Shown piece after piece: positions 36,087 to 46,663 of a stretch of 64,000 bases of DNA. The stretch lies in the NCBI RefSeq assembly GCF_004912275.1, contig NZ_STGY01000021.1, forward strand, positions 62,001 through 126,000, read 5' to 3'. The DNA is from Glycomyces buryatensis. GTDB taxonomy: Bacteria > Actinomycetota > Actinomycetes > Mycobacteriales > Micromonosporaceae. The translations under genes and the position numbers were made by a program. Each line of letters starts with the position of its first letter. The first letter of the stretch is position 1. The notes beneath the pieces are model-generated. The model searched no databases. It had not been told where the DNA came from and saw nothing but the letters and a program-made list of their open reading frames with translations.

Positions 36087-37112
<1,026 letters not shown>

Positions 37113-37120
37113 TTACTTGG

Positions 37121-37639
37121 CTAGCTCGGTGTGACGTAGCGGGAGAGCGAGGCCATCGATTTGGCCCCGCGCCCGAGCGCGACGGTCCCCGACTGGACGA
37201 GCTCCTTGATGCCGAACGGTTCCAGCACTTCGAGGAACGACTCGATCTTGTCGGAGTTCCCGGTGACCTCGAAGGTGACCGTGTCGGGTGTGACGTCGAC
37301 CGACCGGGCCTTGAACAGCTCGGCGGCGGCGATCACCTGGCCGCGGGTGGCGGCTTCGGCGCGGACCTTCACCAGCAGCAGTTCGCGCTGCACGGAGGCG
37401 TCCGCTTCGAGTTCCACGATCTTGAGCACGTGGATGAGCTTGTTGAGCTGCTTGGTGACCTGCTCCAGGAAGCCGGTCTCGACGTCCACCACGATGGTGA
37501 TGCGGGAGACGCCGGGGTGCTCGGTCTCGCCGACGGCGAGGGAGTCGATATTGAAGCCGCGCCTGGAGAACAGGGCGGAGACGCGGGCGAGCACGCCCGG
37601 TTTGTTCTCGACGAGCACGGAGAGCGTATGTTTCGCCAT
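37121..37639 (-). CDS. ilvN: Acetolactate synthase small (regulatory) subunit
   Basis: Regulatory subunit that activates IlvB and confers valine feedback inhibition. The N-terminal ACT domain (TLSVLVENKPGVLARVSALF, ~4-23) includes the GVL loop where valine binds in homologues; the ACT-like C-terminal domain (ALS_ss_C) covers ~85-165. At 172 residues it is of usual length. It begins directly after the ilvB stop with no gap, so translation is coupled and stoichiometry fixed. Confidence 0.95.
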   Translation of the reverse strand: MAKHTLSVLVENKPGVLARVSALFSRRGFNIDSLAVGETEHPGVSRITIVVDVETGFLEQVTKQLNKLIHVLKIVELEADASVQRELLLVKVRAEAATRGQVIAAAELFKARSVDVTPDTVTFEVTGNSDKIESFLEVLEPFGIKELVQSGTVALGRGAKSMASLSRYVTPS

Positions 37640-39502
37640 TTAGATTTCCCCCTCGTCCTCGAAGCTCGGGCGCACGTCGCGTGCGTACAGGATTTCGTCG
37701 TTGGAGACGCCGGCGGGGACCATGGGCCACACCATCGCATCCTGGCCGACGGTGAAGTCGACCACCACGGGGCGATCGTTGATCGCGTTGGCCTGCTTGA
37801 TGATCTCGTCGACCTCTTCGGGGCGCTCGGCCCGCAGTCCGACGCAGCCCAGGGCCTCGGCCAGCTTGACGAAGTCGGGGACGCGCGGCGAGGCCTCGGA
37901 GTGGTGGGTCGACAGGTTGGTGTTGGAGTAGCGCTTGTCGTAGAACAGCGTCTGCCACTGCCGGACCATGCCGAGATTGCCGTTGTTGATGACGGCGACC
38001 TTGATCGGGATGCCCTCGATCGCGCAGGTGGCGAGCTCCTGGTTGGTCATCTGGAAGCAGCCGTCGCCGTCGATCGCCCACACCGGACGGTCCATGGCGC
38101 CGAGTTTGGCGCCCATCGCGGCAGGGACCGCGAAGCCCATCGTGCCGAGGCCGCCGGAGTTGAGGAACGTGCCCGGCTCGTCGTAGGTGATGAACTGGCT
38201 GGCCCACATCTGGTGCTGGCCGACGCCGGTCGTCCAGATGGTGCCCTCCTCGGCGAGCTCGCCGAGGCGCTGGATGACGTGCTGGGGCGCCAGCGGCTCG
38301 TCCGGCCCGTGGGCCTCGAAGCCCAGCGGGTAGCGCCCGCGCAGGTCGTCCAGGGTCTCCCACCAGGTCTTCAGGCGCTCCTTGCCGGGGTCGGCGTAGG
38401 CCTCGGTCATGGCTGAGATGGCGGCCTTGCAGTCACCGACGATCGGCACGTCGGCCTCGCGGTTCTTGCCGATCTCGGCCGGGTCGATGTCGACGTGGAC
38501 GACCTTGGCGTCGGGCGCGAAGCTGGAGAGCTTGCCGGTGACCCGGTCGTCGAAGCGGGCGCCCAGGGCCACCAGGAGATCGGACTTCTGCAGGGCGTGG
38601 ACGGCCGGCACGGTGCCGTGCATGCCGGGCATGCCCAGGTGCTGCGGGTGCGAGTCGGGGAAGGCCCCGCGCGCCATCAGGGTGGTGACCACGGGGGCGC
38701 CGGTCAGCTCGGCCAGTTCCATCAGCTCGGCGTGCGCGCCGGACTTGATGACGCCGCCGCCGACGTAGAGCACGGGGCGCTTGGCGTCGGCGATGAGCGC
38801 GGCGGCCTCGCGGATCTGCTTGCCGTGGGGCTGCGTCGTCGGCTTGTAGCCGGGCAGGTCCATGCGGGGGGGCCACACGAACGGGGCCGGGCCGGCGAGG
38901 ATGTCCTTGGGGATGTCGACCAGCACCGGGCCGGGGCGCCCGGACGCGGCCACGTAGAAGGCCTCGGCCAGCACGCGCGGGATGTCGGCGCCGTCGCGGA
39001 TCAGGTAGGAGTGCTTGGTGATCGGCATGGTGATGCCGCAGATGTCGGCCTCTTGGAAGGCGTCGGTGCCGATGGAGGCGCTGGCGACCTGGCCGGTGAT
39101 GGCGACCATCGGGACGGAGTCCATGTGGGCGTCGGCCAGGGGGGTGACCAGGTTGGTCGCGCCGGGGCCGGAGGTGGCCATGCAGACGCCGACCTTGCCG
39201 GTGGCGAGCGCGTAACCCTGGGCGGCGTGCCCCGCGCCCTGCTCGTGCCGGACGAGGATGTGGCGCACCTTGGTCGAGTCCAGGAGCGGGTCGTAGGCGG
39301 GGAGGATCGCGCCGCCCGGGATACCGAAGACCGCTTCGACCTCGAGCTCTTCGAGGGCCCTGACGACCGCTTGGGCGCCGGTGAGGACGGGGGCGGCCAC
39401 ATGGGTGCCGTGCGGCGGTGCCGGCTTGGGTGCCTTCGGCCTGGCGGGCTGAGCCTTGGCAGCCTGCGGCCCTGGCTTCGGTGCCTTCACTGGTGTGCTC
39501 AT
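37640..39502 (-). CDS. ilvB: Acetolactate synthase large (catalytic) subunit
   Basis: Thiamine-diphosphate enzyme making acetolactate from pyruvate, or acetohydroxybutyrate with 2-ketobutyrate. It has 620 residues, with a Pro/Lys-rich N-terminal extension of ~45. The catalytic glutamate is in [13 protein letters not shown] (~84). The ThDP/Mg motif [21 protein letters not shown]...INN is at ~470-500. FIP-like [12 protein letters not shown] is at ~58. The ATG has AAAGGAC upstream. A leader with a terminator hairpin and a small leader peptide precedes it. First gene of ilvBNC. Confidence 0.96.
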
Positions 39503-39560
39503 GTCCTTTGTCCAATAGGGTTGGCTGACGGTTCGACATGTGGCGTCGTTCCCCGGGCAG

Positions 39561-39622
39561 AAAAAATCGCCCGCGTGCTAGACGCACGGGGCGAGCGCAC
39601 CGTCAGGGAAACGACGGTGCGC
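39561..39622 (-). promoter_or_regulatory. ilv transcription attenuator (two hairpins and U-run)
   Basis: Read on the minus strand: hairpin 1 is a perfect 10-bp stem (39622-39613 with 39604-39595, loop 8). Hairpin 2 is a terminator with arms 39593-39584 and 39578-39568, one base unpaired, followed by UUUUUU at 39566-39561. It lies 59 bp before ilvB and just downstream of the leader-peptide stop, whose last base opens hairpin 1. This is the layout of an amino-acid attenuator: a ribosome stalled on scarce branched-chain codons would change folding. The exact antiterminator was not resolved. Confidence 0.8.
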
Positions 39623-39696
39623 TAAGTAAGTACTACAACGAGCGCCGGGGTCACGAGGACCTCGGTCGCGATGATGTCGTAGCTCTGCTTTGGCAC
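39622..39696 (-). CDS. ilv leader peptide, rich in Val, Leu and Ile
   Basis: Short frame of 24 codons starting at GTG 39696 (an ATG at 39708 would make 28). Ten of the 24 residues are branched-chain, with Ile-Ile in the middle and Leu-Val-Val-Val-Leu just before the end. The stop TAG touches the first attenuator hairpin. The GTG is 7 bases past a -10 box, so the mRNA is probably leaderless and the upstream ATG would not be transcribed. It should act as the sensor of charged Val/Leu/Ile tRNA for ilvBNC. Confidence 0.75.
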   Translation of the reverse strand: MPKQSYDIIATEVLVTPALVVVLT

Positions 39697-39703
39697 GTTC
39701 CCC

Positions 39704-39732
39704 AGCATGCACGATTTGAGCCCGCGAGTCAA
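39704..39732 (-). promoter_or_regulatory. Predicted ilvBNC promoter
   Basis: On the minus strand TTGACT (-35; 39732-39727), a 17-base spacer, and CATGCT (-10; 39709-39704). The start site expected ~7 bases on coincides with the GTG of the leader peptide. The -35 is near-consensus and the -10 is weaker. Confidence 0.6.
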
Positions 39733-39789
39733 CTTTTCTCACATGACGGGACGTGTTTCGGCGTGTCGCACAGAGACCTTAACGAGCCC

Positions 39790-42441
39790 TCAGGCTGCGG
39801 TTATGGCCTTCGGCGAGTCGCGCAGCCAGCGGGTGAGTTCATCAGGTGGCATGGGTTTGGCGAGCAGGTAGCCCTGCACCATCGGGGCCCCGGCCTCGAT
39901 CATCGCGTTCAGCTGGAGGTCGGTCTCGACGCCCTCGGCGATGACCTCCATGCCGAGGCGGCGGCCGAGCTCGATGGTGACGGAGGCGAGAGGGCCGACG
40001 CCGCCGTCGTCCTTGGCGATGAGGTCGCGGTCGATCTTGATGATGTCGACCGGGAGCCGGTCGAGTTGCCCCAGTGAGGAGTAGCCGGAGCCGAAGTCGT
40101 CCAGGGCGATGCGCACACCGGCGCCGCGCAGCGCCTTCAGCTGGGCGATGAGGGTGTTCATCTGGTGGGAGAAGTCGTGCTCGGTGACTTCGAGTACGAG
40201 CCGCGACGCGGAGACGCCGGCCGCGATGAGCGCGGTGTTGACCTCGGTGGCGAACAGGTGGGTGTGGAGCTCCTTGACCGAGACGTTGACGGAGATCCAG
40301 GTGCGGATGCCGTGGGAGTGCCACTCGGCGAGCTGCTCGGCGGCGCGATTGACCGCCCATACCGCGAGGTCCTGGGTGAGGCCCGATTCGGTTGCGGCCG
40401 GGATGAACTCGCCGGGGCTGACATTGCCGAGGCGGGGGTGCTTCCAGCGCAGCAGCGCCTCGGCCCCGATGATGGCGCGGTTCTTGAGGCAGAACACGGG
40501 CTGGTAGACCAGGCGCAGCTCGTCGCGGTCGATGGCGCCGCGCAGCTCCTGGGTGAGCTCGTTGCGGCGGCGGACCTTCCGGTCGAACTCGGCGTCATAG
40601 GTCTCGTAGCGGTTCTTGCCGGCCTGTTTGGCGGCCCGCAGGGCGAGGTCGGCATTGCGCAGCAGGATCTCGGGGTCGTCCAGTCCCTCGGTGGCGGTGG
40701 CGATGCCGACCGAGCCGGTGGTGAAGACGGTGGACTCGTCGTGGAACACGTACGGCTCGGCGAGCGTGTCGACCAGGTCCCGGGCGGTGGCGACGGCCTC
40801 GGAACGATTGGCTCGCAAGAGGATCGCGAACTCGTCGCCGCCGAGGCGCGCGCCCACGTCGGTGGGGGCCAGCAGGTCCTTGATGCGGCGGGAGACCTCC
40901 ACCAGGAGCTCGTCGCCGAAGTCGTGGCCGCGGGTGTCGTTGACGTTCTTGAACCCGTCGAGGTCGAGCAGCAGCAGCGCGGTCTGGTGCTCCTCGGCGG
41001 CGACGCCGTCCTCCAGGTTCTGCAGGAGCGCGCGGCGGTTGGCCAGGCCCGTGAGCGGGTCGGTGTAGGCCATGCGGGCCAGCTCGGTCTCCAGGGAGCG
41101 GCGGGCGCCGACGTCCTCGATGCGGGCGACCAGGCCGCGCACGTTGGGCTGGCCGCGCAGATCGGTCACGACGGTCTCGGTGTATCGCCAGCGACGGGCC
41201 GAATCGCGGATCCGCAGGTTGAGCGTGACCCTGCCGGTGGCGCGGGCGCCCTCGAGCAGGGAGCGCAGATCCTCTGCGGCGCCTCGCTTGTCATCGATGT
41301 AGAGGAGGTCGATGAAGGAGGCGCCGATGCAGTGGCCGGCGTCGGTGACGGGCCGCCAGGCCGAGTCCTCGGGATACCAGGTGACCTTGAGGTCGGGGTC
41401 GAGGACCAGCAGAGTGTCGGAGGCGACGCCTACGATTGCGGCCAGCTTGCGGTGGCGGTCGGCGGCATCGCCGGTGACGCGGCGGACGTCGTAGTAGGTG
41501 AGCACGAGGCGCCCGCCGAGCGTCGAGGCGGCGGCCAGCGCGATGAGGGCGGCGTCGAGCGGGAGGGACCCGACGGTGGCGCCATTGTGGAGGAGCGCGG
41601 CGGCGGCGAGGGCGGCGGCCCCGCCCATGACGGTGTAGTGAACGGAGGGGTAGTTGGGTTTGGCGACCGAAGGCTGCTGGCTGCGCGCCAGGTAGGTGAC
41701 GCCGATGAGGGCTGCGCAGGCGGCGATCCAGGCGACTCCGAACCACAGGACGCGGACCTCGGTGGGGTGCCACTGCCAGGAACTGAGCGTGGCGAGTCCG
41801 GTGGCGTGGACGACCAGGACGGCGAGGTAGGCGAAGGCGTGGCGGCGGCGCCAGCGATGGAGGCGGAAGGTGGTGGTCATTCCGACGCCGGCCAGGACGA
41901 TGGCGAGCGACCAGGGGGCGAGGATCCACAGGTCGACCGAGTCGACGTGGGGCTGGTTGGCCCTGATCCAGGGTCGGGAGAACTCGAGCCAGACGGCGAA
42001 GAGGAGGCACAGGCCGACAAAGCCGCCGTCGACCAGGCGCCGCTGCACGGCGAGGCGGTCCCAGCGCTCGTCGGGCAGCCGCAGCAACGCGAGTCCATAC
42101 AGGACCATGGCGATGGTGAAGCCGATGCCCGCCAGGATGGCGCCGGTGGGGTTCGGCACCCAGCAGGCGGTGGCGACGCCGCAGGCGGTGACCTGGATTC
42201 CGGCGGCGATGATCCGGTAGGAGGTCCGCCGGCCGGCCCTGACGCGGGCGGCGATGCGCCACATGAGGAGTCCGGCGCAGGCGGCGCCGAGGCTGCCGAG
42301 GGCCGCGGCGGTGTCGGGGTCGAGGATGCCCGGTTCGGAGCGGACGCTGACGGCGATTCCCGCCGCGAATACGGAACACCACACCGCTGTGGCCGCGGTC
42401 CACGCCGTCCAGCGGCGGGCGCGACGGAGTGTCGGCGTCAT
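39790..42441 (-). CDS. Membrane-bound GGDEF-EAL cyclic-di-GMP enzyme
   Basis: An 883-residue signalling protein. N-terminal ~310 residues hold eight or more membrane helices (an uncharacterised sensor). A PAS-like domain (~330-430) follows, then GGDEF (~440-600) with an intact ARLGGDEFAIL, then EAL (~620-870) with EALLRWKHP, DDFGSGYSSL and EGVETDLQL all conserved. Both cyclase and phosphodiesterase active sites look intact, so the net direction cannot be predicted. In actinomycetes such proteins influence development. It stands alone between ilv leader and the next gene, with its own 176-bp upstream gap. Confidence 0.92.
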   Translation of the reverse strand: MTPTLRRARRWTAWTAATAVWCSVFAAGIAVSVRSEPGILDPDTAAALGSLGAACAGLLMWRIAARVRAGRRTSYRIIAAGIQVTACGVATACWVPNPTGAILAGIGFTIAMVLYGLALLRLPDERWDRLAVQRRLVDGGFVGLCLLFAVWLEFSRPWIRANQPHVDSVDLWILAPWSLAIVLAGVGMTTTFRLHRWRRRHAFAYLAVLVVHATGLATLSSWQWHPTEVRVLWFGVAWIAACAALIGVTYLARSQQPSVAKPNYPSVHYTVMGGAAALAAAALLHNGATVGSLPLDAALIALAAASTLGGRLVLTYYDVRRVTGDAADRHRKLAAIVGVASDTLLVLDPDLKVTWYPEDSAWRPVTDAGHCIGASFIDLLYIDDKRGAAEDLRSLLEGARATGRVTLNLRIRDSARRWRYTETVVTDLRGQPNVRGLVARIEDVGARRSLETELARMAYTDPLTGLANRRALLQNLEDGVAAEEHQTALLLLDLDGFKNVNDTRGHDFGDELLVEVSRRIKDLLAPTDVGARLGGDEFAILLRANRSEAVATARDLVDTLAEPYVFHDESTVFTTGSVGIATATEGLDDPEILLRNADLALRAAKQAGKNRYETYDAEFDRKVRRRNELTQELRGAIDRDELRLVYQPVFCLKNRAIIGAEALLRWKHPRLGNVSPGEFIPAATESGLTQDLAVWAVNRAAEQLAEWHSHGIRTWISVNVSVKELHTHLFATEVNTALIAAGVSASRLVLEVTEHDFSHQMNTLIAQLKALRGAGVRIALDDFGSGYSSLGQLDRLPVDIIKIDRDLIAKDDGGVGPLASVTIELGRRLGMEVIAEGVETDLQLNAMIEAGAPMVQGYLLAKPMPPDELTRWLRDSPKAITAA

Positions 42442-44327: not shown

Positions 44328-46172
44328 TTAATCGACCTTGCGGATGGCTCCGTCGCTGGCCGGGGTGGCCATGGAGGCGTAGGCCTGGAGGGCCCGCGAG
44401 ACCACGCGGTCGCGGCTCACCGGGGTGAACGGCCGCTCGCGCTTCTCCTGGGCGACACGGCGTTCGGCCAGGGTGGCCTCGTCCACCTTGAGTTCCATCC
44501 TGCGGGCCGGGATGTCGATCTCGATGATGTCGCCGTCCTCGACCAGCCCGATGACGCCGCCGCCGGCGGCCTCGGGGCTGACGTGGCCGATGGAGAGACC
44601 GGAGGTGCCGCCGGAGAAGCGCCCGTCGGTGATGAGCGCGCACTTGCGGCCCAGGCCGCGGCCCTTCAGGAACGAGGTCGGGTACAGCATCTCCTGCATG
44701 CCGGGACCGCCCTTGGGGCCTTCGTAGCGGATGACGACGACCTCGCCCTCCTTGACGGACTTGTCGAGGATGCCCTGCACGGCGTCGTCCTGCGACTCGA
44801 AGACGTGCGCCGGGCCGGTGAAGGTCCAGTTCTCCTCGGGGACGCCGGCGGTCTTGACGACGCTGCCGTCCTCGGCGAGGTTGCCGAACAGGACCGCCAG
44901 GCCGCCGTCGACGGTGTAGGCGTGCTCGACCGAGTGGATGCACCCGTCCTTCGCATCGGTGTCCAGGCTCGCCCACCGGTTCGAGGTCGAGAACGCCTCG
45001 GTGGTGCGGACATTGCCGGGCGCGGCGTGGAACAGCTCGATCGCCTCGGGCGACGGGCTCTCGCCCCGGATGTCCCACTTGGCGAGGTGCTCGCCGAGCG
45101 AGGCCGAGTGAACCGAGTGGACGTCGTCGTTGAGGAGGCCGCCCCGGTGGAGCTCACCGAGGATGGCGGGGATCCCGCCGGCGCGGTGCACGTCCTCCAT
45201 GTGGAACTTCTCGGAGTTCGGGGCGACCTTGGAGATGCAGGGGACGCGGCGCGAGACCGCGTCGATGTCCGAGACGGAGAATTCGAGGCCCGCCTCGCGG
45301 GCGGCCGCGAGCAGGTGCAGGACGGTGTTGGTGGAGCCGCCCATCGCCACGTCCAGGGCCATCGCGTTCTCGAAGGCGTCGTGCGTGGCGATCGAGCGCG
45401 GCAGGACCGAGGAGTCGTCTTCGTCGTAGTAGCGGCGGGCCAGGTCCATGACCACGCGCCCGGCCTCGGTGAAGAGGTCCCGGCGGGCGGAGTGGGTGGC
45501 GAGGGTGGAACCGTTGCCCGGCAGCGCGAGCCCGAGGGCCTCGGTGAGGCAGTTCATCGAGTTGGCGGTGAACATGCCCGAACAGGAACCGCAAGTGGGG
45601 CAGGCGGCCTCTTCCATCTTGAGCAGCTGCGCGTCCGAGACGTCGTCGTTCGCGGCGGCGATCATCGGGTTGATGAGGTCGAGCTTCTGCGTCACCACGC
45701 CGTTGTCGTCGATGGTCTTGCCGGCCTCCATGGGGCCGCCGGAGACGAAGACGACGGGGATGTTCAGGCGCAGGGCGGCCATGAGCATGCCCGGGGTGAT
45801 CTTGTCGCAGTTGGAGATGCACACGAGCGCGTCGGCGCAGTGCGCATTGACCATGTACTCGACCGAGTCGGCGATGATCTCGCGGCTGGGGAGGGAGTAG
45901 AGCATCCCCCCGTGGCCCATCGCGATGCCGTCGTCGACGGCGATCGTGTGGAACTCCTTGGAGACGCCGCCGGCCTCGGCGATCGCGCCGGCGACGATGT
46001 CGCCCATGTCCTTGAGGTGCACGTGTCCGGGAACGAACTGCGTGTACGAGTTGGCGATGGCCACGATCGGCTTGCCGAAATCAGAGTCGGTCATACCGGT
46101 GGCGCGCCACAGCGCGCGAGCGCCGGCCATCTGCCGACCGTGGGTTGAAGTACGTGAACGTAGCGCTGGCAT
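44328..46172 (-). CDS. ilvD: Dihydroxy-acid dehydratase
   Basis: Fe-S enzyme dehydrating the dihydroxy acids made by IlvC to the keto acids of valine and isoleucine. At 614 residues the start at ATG 46172 gives the usual length. IlvD/Edd signatures are [20 protein letters not shown] (~118) and [18 protein letters not shown] (~190); the C-terminal [16 protein letters not shown] is conserved. The cysteines fit cluster binding. It is not in the ilvBNC operon but lies ~65 bp downstream of the S26 peptidase gene on the same strand. Completes the four ilv genes visible here. Confidence 0.96.
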
Positions 46173-46237
46173 GGATCCAGTCTGCCACGTTCCAGATCGC
46201 GGGAACAACTGCCCGCTCCTTAGGATTGACTCAGGTT

Positions 46238-46663
46238 TTAGAACTTGCGGAGCATGGTTCCGGCGATCAGGGCGGCCGGGACAGGGCCGTGGCGGCGCGA
46301 GTCCTCCCCCGCCGGATTGTCGCTGAGCAGGAAGTAGTGATCGAGCGGGACGAGGTCGCCGGTGCCGGGCATCGCCTCGCCCGGACCGGCGGCGACGCGC
46401 TTGATCCACCAGGGCGCGCGGGCCTTGCGGACTTCGGCCCAGCCGAGGTCCGGATCGGGGGCGGCGACCACCACGACGTCGCCGGTGGCGAACCGGCGGG
46501 TGCGCTTGGCGAGGACTTCATCGCCGTCGCGCAGCGCCGGTTCCATCGAGACGCCCTCGACCCTGACGAGGAGCCAGCGCCGCCGCAGCTGCCGCACCGA
46601 CTCTGCCATCAGCAGCACGCCGACGATCAGCGCCAGCGCGGCCAGCCACTCAGAAGAAGTCAT
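46238..46663 (-). CDS. S26 family signal peptidase-like protease
   Basis: A 141-residue membrane-anchored serine protease. One N-terminal helix (~7-25) is followed by the catalytic Ser in [14 protein letters not shown] (~40) and Lys in [13 protein letters not shown] (~87), and the [17 protein letters not shown] box (~113-129). It is shorter than typical type I signal peptidases; the small size fits the proteases that process nickel superoxide dismutase precursors in actinomycetes, but no sodN is in view. It is 13 bp after chdC in the heme cluster, probably co-transcribed. Confidence 0.83.

Follow-up and report, generated by a model that had tools for sequence, protein, structure and literature searches.

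Leaderless messages have been described for leader peptides of actinobacterial ilv operons. A leaderless transcript is defined as one that begins 0-3 nt from the start codon, and the IlvL peptide of Streptomyces lividans is described as transcribed in this way (PMC8079986). In Corynebacterium glutamicum, the ilvBNC transcript is described as starting one nucleotide from the leader start codon (PMC11857589), and Morbach et al. 2000, also on this operon, name leader-peptide formation without a ribosome-binding site in their title, as given in the reference list of PMC10272879. Here we analysed a 64,000-nt stretch of Glycomyces buryatensis DNA (the window; contig NZ_STGY01000021.1), in which the original prediction had placed a complete ilv attenuator with a leaderless leader peptide. 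Judged from the sequence and its relatives, the locus very probably is a leaderless ilv attenuator. As such it is a further example of the leaderless actinobacterial ilvB attenuators, an arrangement already known, and the novelty implied for the leaderless sensor falls away, with C. glutamicum ilvBNC and S. lividans ilvL preceding it (PMC10272879, PMC11857589, PMC8079986).

Attenuator anatomy and conservation in Glycomyces

Both strands were read, and the whole attenuator was located on the minus strand in front of ilvBNC. The elements listed in the original prediction, which had not named the strand, were each found where it had put them: a -35/-10 promoter, a 24-codon frame with ten Val/Leu/Ile codons, two hairpins, and six U. 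The promoter (39704-39732) consisted of TTGACT at -35 (39732-39727), a 17-nt spacer, and CATGCT at -10 (39709-39704), the last being a poor match to TATAAT that agrees with nAnnnT. Seven nucleotides past the -10, GTG (39696-39694) opened the leader peptide frame (39622-39696; MPKQSYDIIATEVLVTPALVVVLT), which ran through the control codons CTC GTT GTA GTA CTT (39628-39642) to TAG (39624-39622). The 5' arm of hairpin A (39594-39623; 12-bp stem, 6-nt loop), the proposed on-state hairpin identified by folding and by covariation across relatives, started within this stop codon. Hairpin A had one U in common with hairpin B (39567-39594), the terminator stem-loop identified by folding and a terminator scan, and the U6 tract followed at 39561-39566. 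Downstream, on the same strand, lay ilvB (acetolactate synthase large subunit, 37640-39502, ATG at 39502; NF005860.0, 1090.6 bits, cut-off 881), ilvN (acetolactate synthase small subunit, 37121-37639; NF008864.0, 227.1 bits, cut-off 119), and ilvC (ketol-acid reductoisomerase, 36087-37097; NF004017.0, 547.3 bits, cut-off 336). A GGDEF/EAL (cyclic-di-GMP) gene (39790-42441, minus strand) preceded the attenuator and ended 57 nt before the -35, and ilvD (dihydroxy-acid dehydratase, 44328-46409) lay farther upstream on the same strand.

A generic sigma-70 scan called no promoter in the attenuator stretch; the same scan called the terminator, with two overlapping sites versus 0.4 expected. Compared to dinucleotide shuffles, the two-hairpin pieces folded with z scores of -7.0 and -7.2, and the two-hairpin fold therefore exceeds chance. 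Rfam returned three hits of 16.4-17.5 bits against gathering thresholds of 36-112, so that no family matched the leader, and a search of the plasmid collection gave no match.

Leader-like DNA was detected in 22 of 22 Glycomyces genomes, and the alignment had TTGACT, the 17-nt spacer, an nAnnnT -10 (A at position 2, T at position 6), and GTG 6 or 7 nt further on in every one of them. The leader frame was open throughout, encoding peptides of 21, 23, 24, 25 or 35 residues; its length differences were all multiples of three, among them an in-frame 36-nt insertion close to the frame start in L022, and the adjacent loops and spacers varied by single bases. In all 22 genomes the frame ended with GTA GTA CTT, one further codon, and TAG. 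Both codons were rare: across 42 ORFs of the window, picked mechanically by length and third-position GC, GTA accounted for 3.1% of the Val codons and CTT for 2.6% of the Leu codons. Hairpins A and B and the U6 tract were likewise retained in 22/22. The 5' arm of A started within the stop codon in 21 of these genomes; in the remaining one, L020, it followed a doubled TAG. Aligning relatives, a check that the original prediction had proposed, thus found the leader codons and both hairpins across the genus. A further helix, H1, between early codons and control codons had 7/7 pairs in 15 of the 22 genomes, 6/7 in two, and 5/7 in five; since its pairing was incomplete in 7/22, H1 was not relied on.

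Conservation was also seen outside these elements. The promoter stretch 39704-39741 (at the same place in L002-L022) was conserved beyond the -35 and -10, spacer included, with GAGAAAAGTTGACTCACGGGCCGGAAT in most rows, and Streptomyces leaders had a CTCACATAATGAGAC-like repeat ahead of the -35. The conserved promoter-stretch sequence may be a regulator site. About 15 bases 3' of the U tract (39544-39560; CTGCCCGGGGAACGACG) were near-invariant across the 22 genomes and could pair with the terminator 3' arm once read through.

Placement of the sensor peptide in Glycomyces and its relatives

Relatives beyond the genus came from an IlvB protein scan of named genomes, from which the best 80 of 585 were used. 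Three had too little upstream DNA and one lacked a T5 run in the examined stretch, leaving 76 usable leaders. All 76 (best 80 of 585) carried TTGAC, nAnnnT, and an in-frame ATG or GTG with branched-chain codons 6-8 nt after the -10; spacings of 3-12 nt had been allowed, and the hits outside 6-8 nt were extra ones in L038 and L072. By title count this panel, drawn from the best 80 of 585, spanned 30 named genera, with 22/76 leaders from Streptomyces, some of them encoding the same 13-aa peptide that is described as leaderless in S. lividans, with its start 7 nt after the -10. In a separate phylum sample, IlvB was matched in 115 of 119 genomes and 40 upstream stretches were taken. Of the same-class stretches, 8/9 followed the spacing rule; the exception, L127, from the same order, had both hairpins and branched-chain codons but, by eye, lacked a start codon (ATG or GTG) in the expected position. 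Fifteen stretches came from other classes whose IlvB was closer (L109-L123); 14/15 carried a short frame containing three or more consecutive branched-chain codons, but the spacing rule held in 4/15 only (4-10 nt searched; hits at 7 or 9 nt). The whole set was found in none of the 16 most diverged stretches (L129-L144), one of which, L139, had short branched-chain frames and a weak terminator. Since 76/76 panel leaders (best 80 of 585) and 8/9 same-class stretches fit, leaderless placement appears to be general among the class members sampled.

The start position is predicted, and its spacing from the promoter fits a leaderless start in all 22 genus members and in 76/76 panel leaders (best 80 of 585), a comparison that strongly supports the proposed ilv attenuator with a leaderless peptide. 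Judged from the homologous leaders of S. lividans and C. glutamicum, the exact transcript start would be at or next to the GTG. Were the leader instead transcribed from farther upstream, the peptide would have a 5' leader, perhaps with a Shine-Dalgarno; the absence of a promoter call from the generic scan would suit this, as would the preceding gene on the same strand, which could read through. We consider it quite unlikely, given that the -35, the -10, and the start spacing are kept across the genus and the spacing across the panel. It is very improbable that the peptide is read from an internal GTG at codon 15, behind GAGG. The string GAGG-TCCTC-GTG does occur in the window, but the codon-15 GTG is present in 1/22 genus members, the window only, which ruled out an internal start as a conserved mechanism, and the first 14 codons are in frame in all 22.

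Ribosome position, hairpin A, and the terminator

To model where the ribosome sits, we omitted the RNA to a point 12 nt beyond the A site, and footprints of 9 and 15 nt were also run. With the 12-nt footprint, a ribosome placed on the first control codon left hairpin A formed in 99 of the 101 distinct leaders, compared to 1/101 for one placed on the stop codon; the corresponding numbers were 98 and 3 at 9 nt, and 86 and 2 at 15 nt. The shift in hairpin formation with ribosome position, which the original prediction had asked to be checked, was thus found. In Glycomyces, this dependence arises because the A 5' arm starts in the stop codon (21/22). Hairpin A also varied as a helix should: over 34 distinct arm pairs, its own arms were 93.8% paired, versus a mean of 76.5% and a maximum of 83.5% in 1000 swaps. 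GCGC formed the base of A in 33/34 arm pairs, a figure partly built in by anchoring the arms on one of four four-base words (116/119 leaders anchored, 3 not).

The gap between A and B was counted from the nearest helix before B, the control-codon match being chosen by the hairpin start nearest 5 nt downstream. Among 119 leaders the gap was 0 nt in 83, 1 in 29, 2 in 5, and 3 in 2, and the inside of this helix varied from 3 to 56 nt. The helix was shorter than 5 bp in 5/119 (L071, L111, L112, L117, and L127), and the A/B finder used for part of the anatomy misplaced the A 5' arm in L029, L046, and L096 compared to the gap count. A gap of at most 3 nt alone was frequent in shuffles (67%), but the combination of such a gap with a helix 7 bp or longer was found in 102/110 distinct leaders versus 4.7% of shuffles (68 of 3300 were dropped for want of a scorable terminator).

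Stalling in a trp-type attenuator leads upstream RNA to pair with the terminator 5' arm while the 3' arm is yet to be transcribed. Two hairpins edge to edge are a poor fit to this textbook mechanism. We cut the RNA just before the terminator 3' arm and folded it by ribosome position, with the thr, trp, his, leu, ilv, and ivb attenuators of E. coli as controls. On stalling, the terminator 5' arm was captured in 6/6 controls (mean capture 0.81), and capture was absent at the stop codon in 5/6, with his as the exception. Compared to these, at least half of the 5' arm was captured on stalling in 2/101 actinobacterial leaders by partition function and 4/101 by minimum energy, with a mean of 0.14; no bases were captured in 25/101, 0-2 in 85/101, and three or more in 16/101. 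The truncated RNA therefore did not bear out the description of the hairpin pair as a complete attenuator of the classical type. At the stop codon, capture rose to a mean of 0.40, with at least half of the arm in 24/101 leaders, and this greater capture runs opposite to classical logic. The window leader followed the classical direction at a 9-nt footprint, capture of the arm being 45% in the stalled state and 29% with the ribosome on the stop codon; with footprints of 12 and 15 nt, capture was 8% when stalled and about 50% when the ribosome had reached the stop codon. Complementarity between the terminator arms and upstream RNA was no better than in shuffles (median z 0.10 and 0.66), and an alternative pairing outdid B in 8/110 (3' arm) and 2/110 (5' arm) only. 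Capture of the terminator arms by upstream RNA, being not above base shuffles, was rejected. Folding of full-length leaders was likewise rejected as a test of exclusivity: B was present in 98/98 leaders in each state, but the E. coli controls also kept B in every state, and such folding therefore says nothing on mechanism.

How, then, might A defeat B? Transcription would start at or next to the GTG, and the sensor peptide would be translated from a leaderless message. With ample charged Val and Leu tRNA, the ribosome would reach TAG and cover the A 5' arm, and B with U6 would end transcription. A stall at CTC-GTT-GTA-GTA-CTT would leave the A 5' arm free, A would fold flush against B, and the polymerase would read on. 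The direction of control is inferred from work on C. glutamicum and Mycobacterium tuberculosis; together with the ribosome positions it suggests that A is the on-state. If so, A captures little of B and must act on it otherwise. The base of a terminator such as B has to close within the polymerase, next to the RNA-DNA hybrid. Since it closes there, a helix joined to the first base of B would be unable to follow unless A melts. The least certain step is that A would sterically stop the base of B from closing there. We propose, tentatively and as a possibility that may well prove wrong, an Actinomycetes-wide antitermination by flush hairpins, in which a GC-clamped A, edge to edge with B, would block the terminator base sterically without sequestering an arm. 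Such steric action would explain the fixed adjacency of A and B and the GC-rich base of A. Against it, A also folded without a ribosome in 89/98 leaders in full-length folding, so that a steric A predicts the reverse of a C. glutamicum result in which a start-codon change cut expression by 80% (PMC11857589).

A classical trp-type attenuator, in which stalling lets upstream RNA sequester a terminator arm, is possible but doubtful. For C. glutamicum, C. ulcerans, and M. tuberculosis, the models described in PMC11857589, PMC10272879, and PMC13236596 treat terminator and antiterminator as exclusive, and the 16/101 leaders that take up at least three bases of the 5' arm on stalling agree with them; the rarity of half-arm capture compared to the E. 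coli controls, the shuffle-level complementarity, and the few alternatives that beat B speak against it. It is unlikely that the control codons do not set expression and that another signal acts on A, B, or the promoter. Codon changes in S. coelicolor ilvB were without effect, as told in PMC1262725, and the Glycomyces promoter region is conserved past the -35 and -10, but the rare GTA-GTA-CTT is kept in 22/22, control-codon changes are described as abolishing the response in C. glutamicum (PMC11857589) and M. tuberculosis (PMC13236596), and no Rfam family matches. In a C. ulcerans leader assayed in B. subtilis, one Val-codon change is described as without effect (PMC10272879). As for the flush-hairpin proposal, no statement of such a class-wide arrangement was found in titles and abstract starts among the open-licence papers listed by the searches; the nearest published idea is the 'fast' attenuator of C. 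glutamicum, whose antiterminator and terminator are described as sharing one trinucleotide (PMC11857589). Should control be exerted through the edge-to-edge position of A and B, attenuation would gain a second physical mode, and this position might bear on the puzzling S. coelicolor codon-mutant results.

Comparison with known attenuators

As in the thr, trp, his, leu, ilv, and ivb attenuators of E. coli, a ribosome on control codons would decide an intrinsic terminator in the window, and a ribosome at the stop codon prevented A in all but one of 101 leaders, a trait of classical attenuators; unlike the E. coli attenuators, the leaders did not share the sequestering of the 5' arm on stalling (2/101 versus 6/6). 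M. tuberculosis ilvB1 resembles the window in its short branched-chain frame, LVVI control codons, and terminator before ilvB1NC, but its authors model a mutually exclusive terminator and antiterminator, and the frame is not called leaderless in the parts of the account drawn on here (PMC13236596). S. lividans ilvL, described as leaderless, likewise precedes its operon, ilvBHC, and starts 7 nt after the -10, with hairpins and a U-rich tract (PMC8079986), but its peptide has 13 aa and its frame runs through the A 5' arm, compared to 24 aa ending at the first base of A in the window. C. glutamicum ilvBNC shares with the window a branched-chain leader peptide, whose transcript start, one nucleotide off in C. 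glutamicum, is predicted to lie similarly in the window, a hairpin before the terminator, ilvBNC downstream, and touching bases of antiterminator and terminator (PMC11857589). It differs, by its published description, in a GCC trinucleotide overlap, compared to one shared base in the window, and in a competing H1 hairpin (three-hairpin model, PMC11857589; ilvB-II motif, PMC10272879). Two features of actinobacterial ilvB attenuators were found in Glycomyces, namely a short frame with a Val/Leu/Ile run directly before ilvB in 22/22 genus members, and a hairpin followed by a terminator hairpin with its U tract. The leaderless sensor peptide would thus extend a known arrangement to Glycomyces, one that appears to be kept widely in the class.
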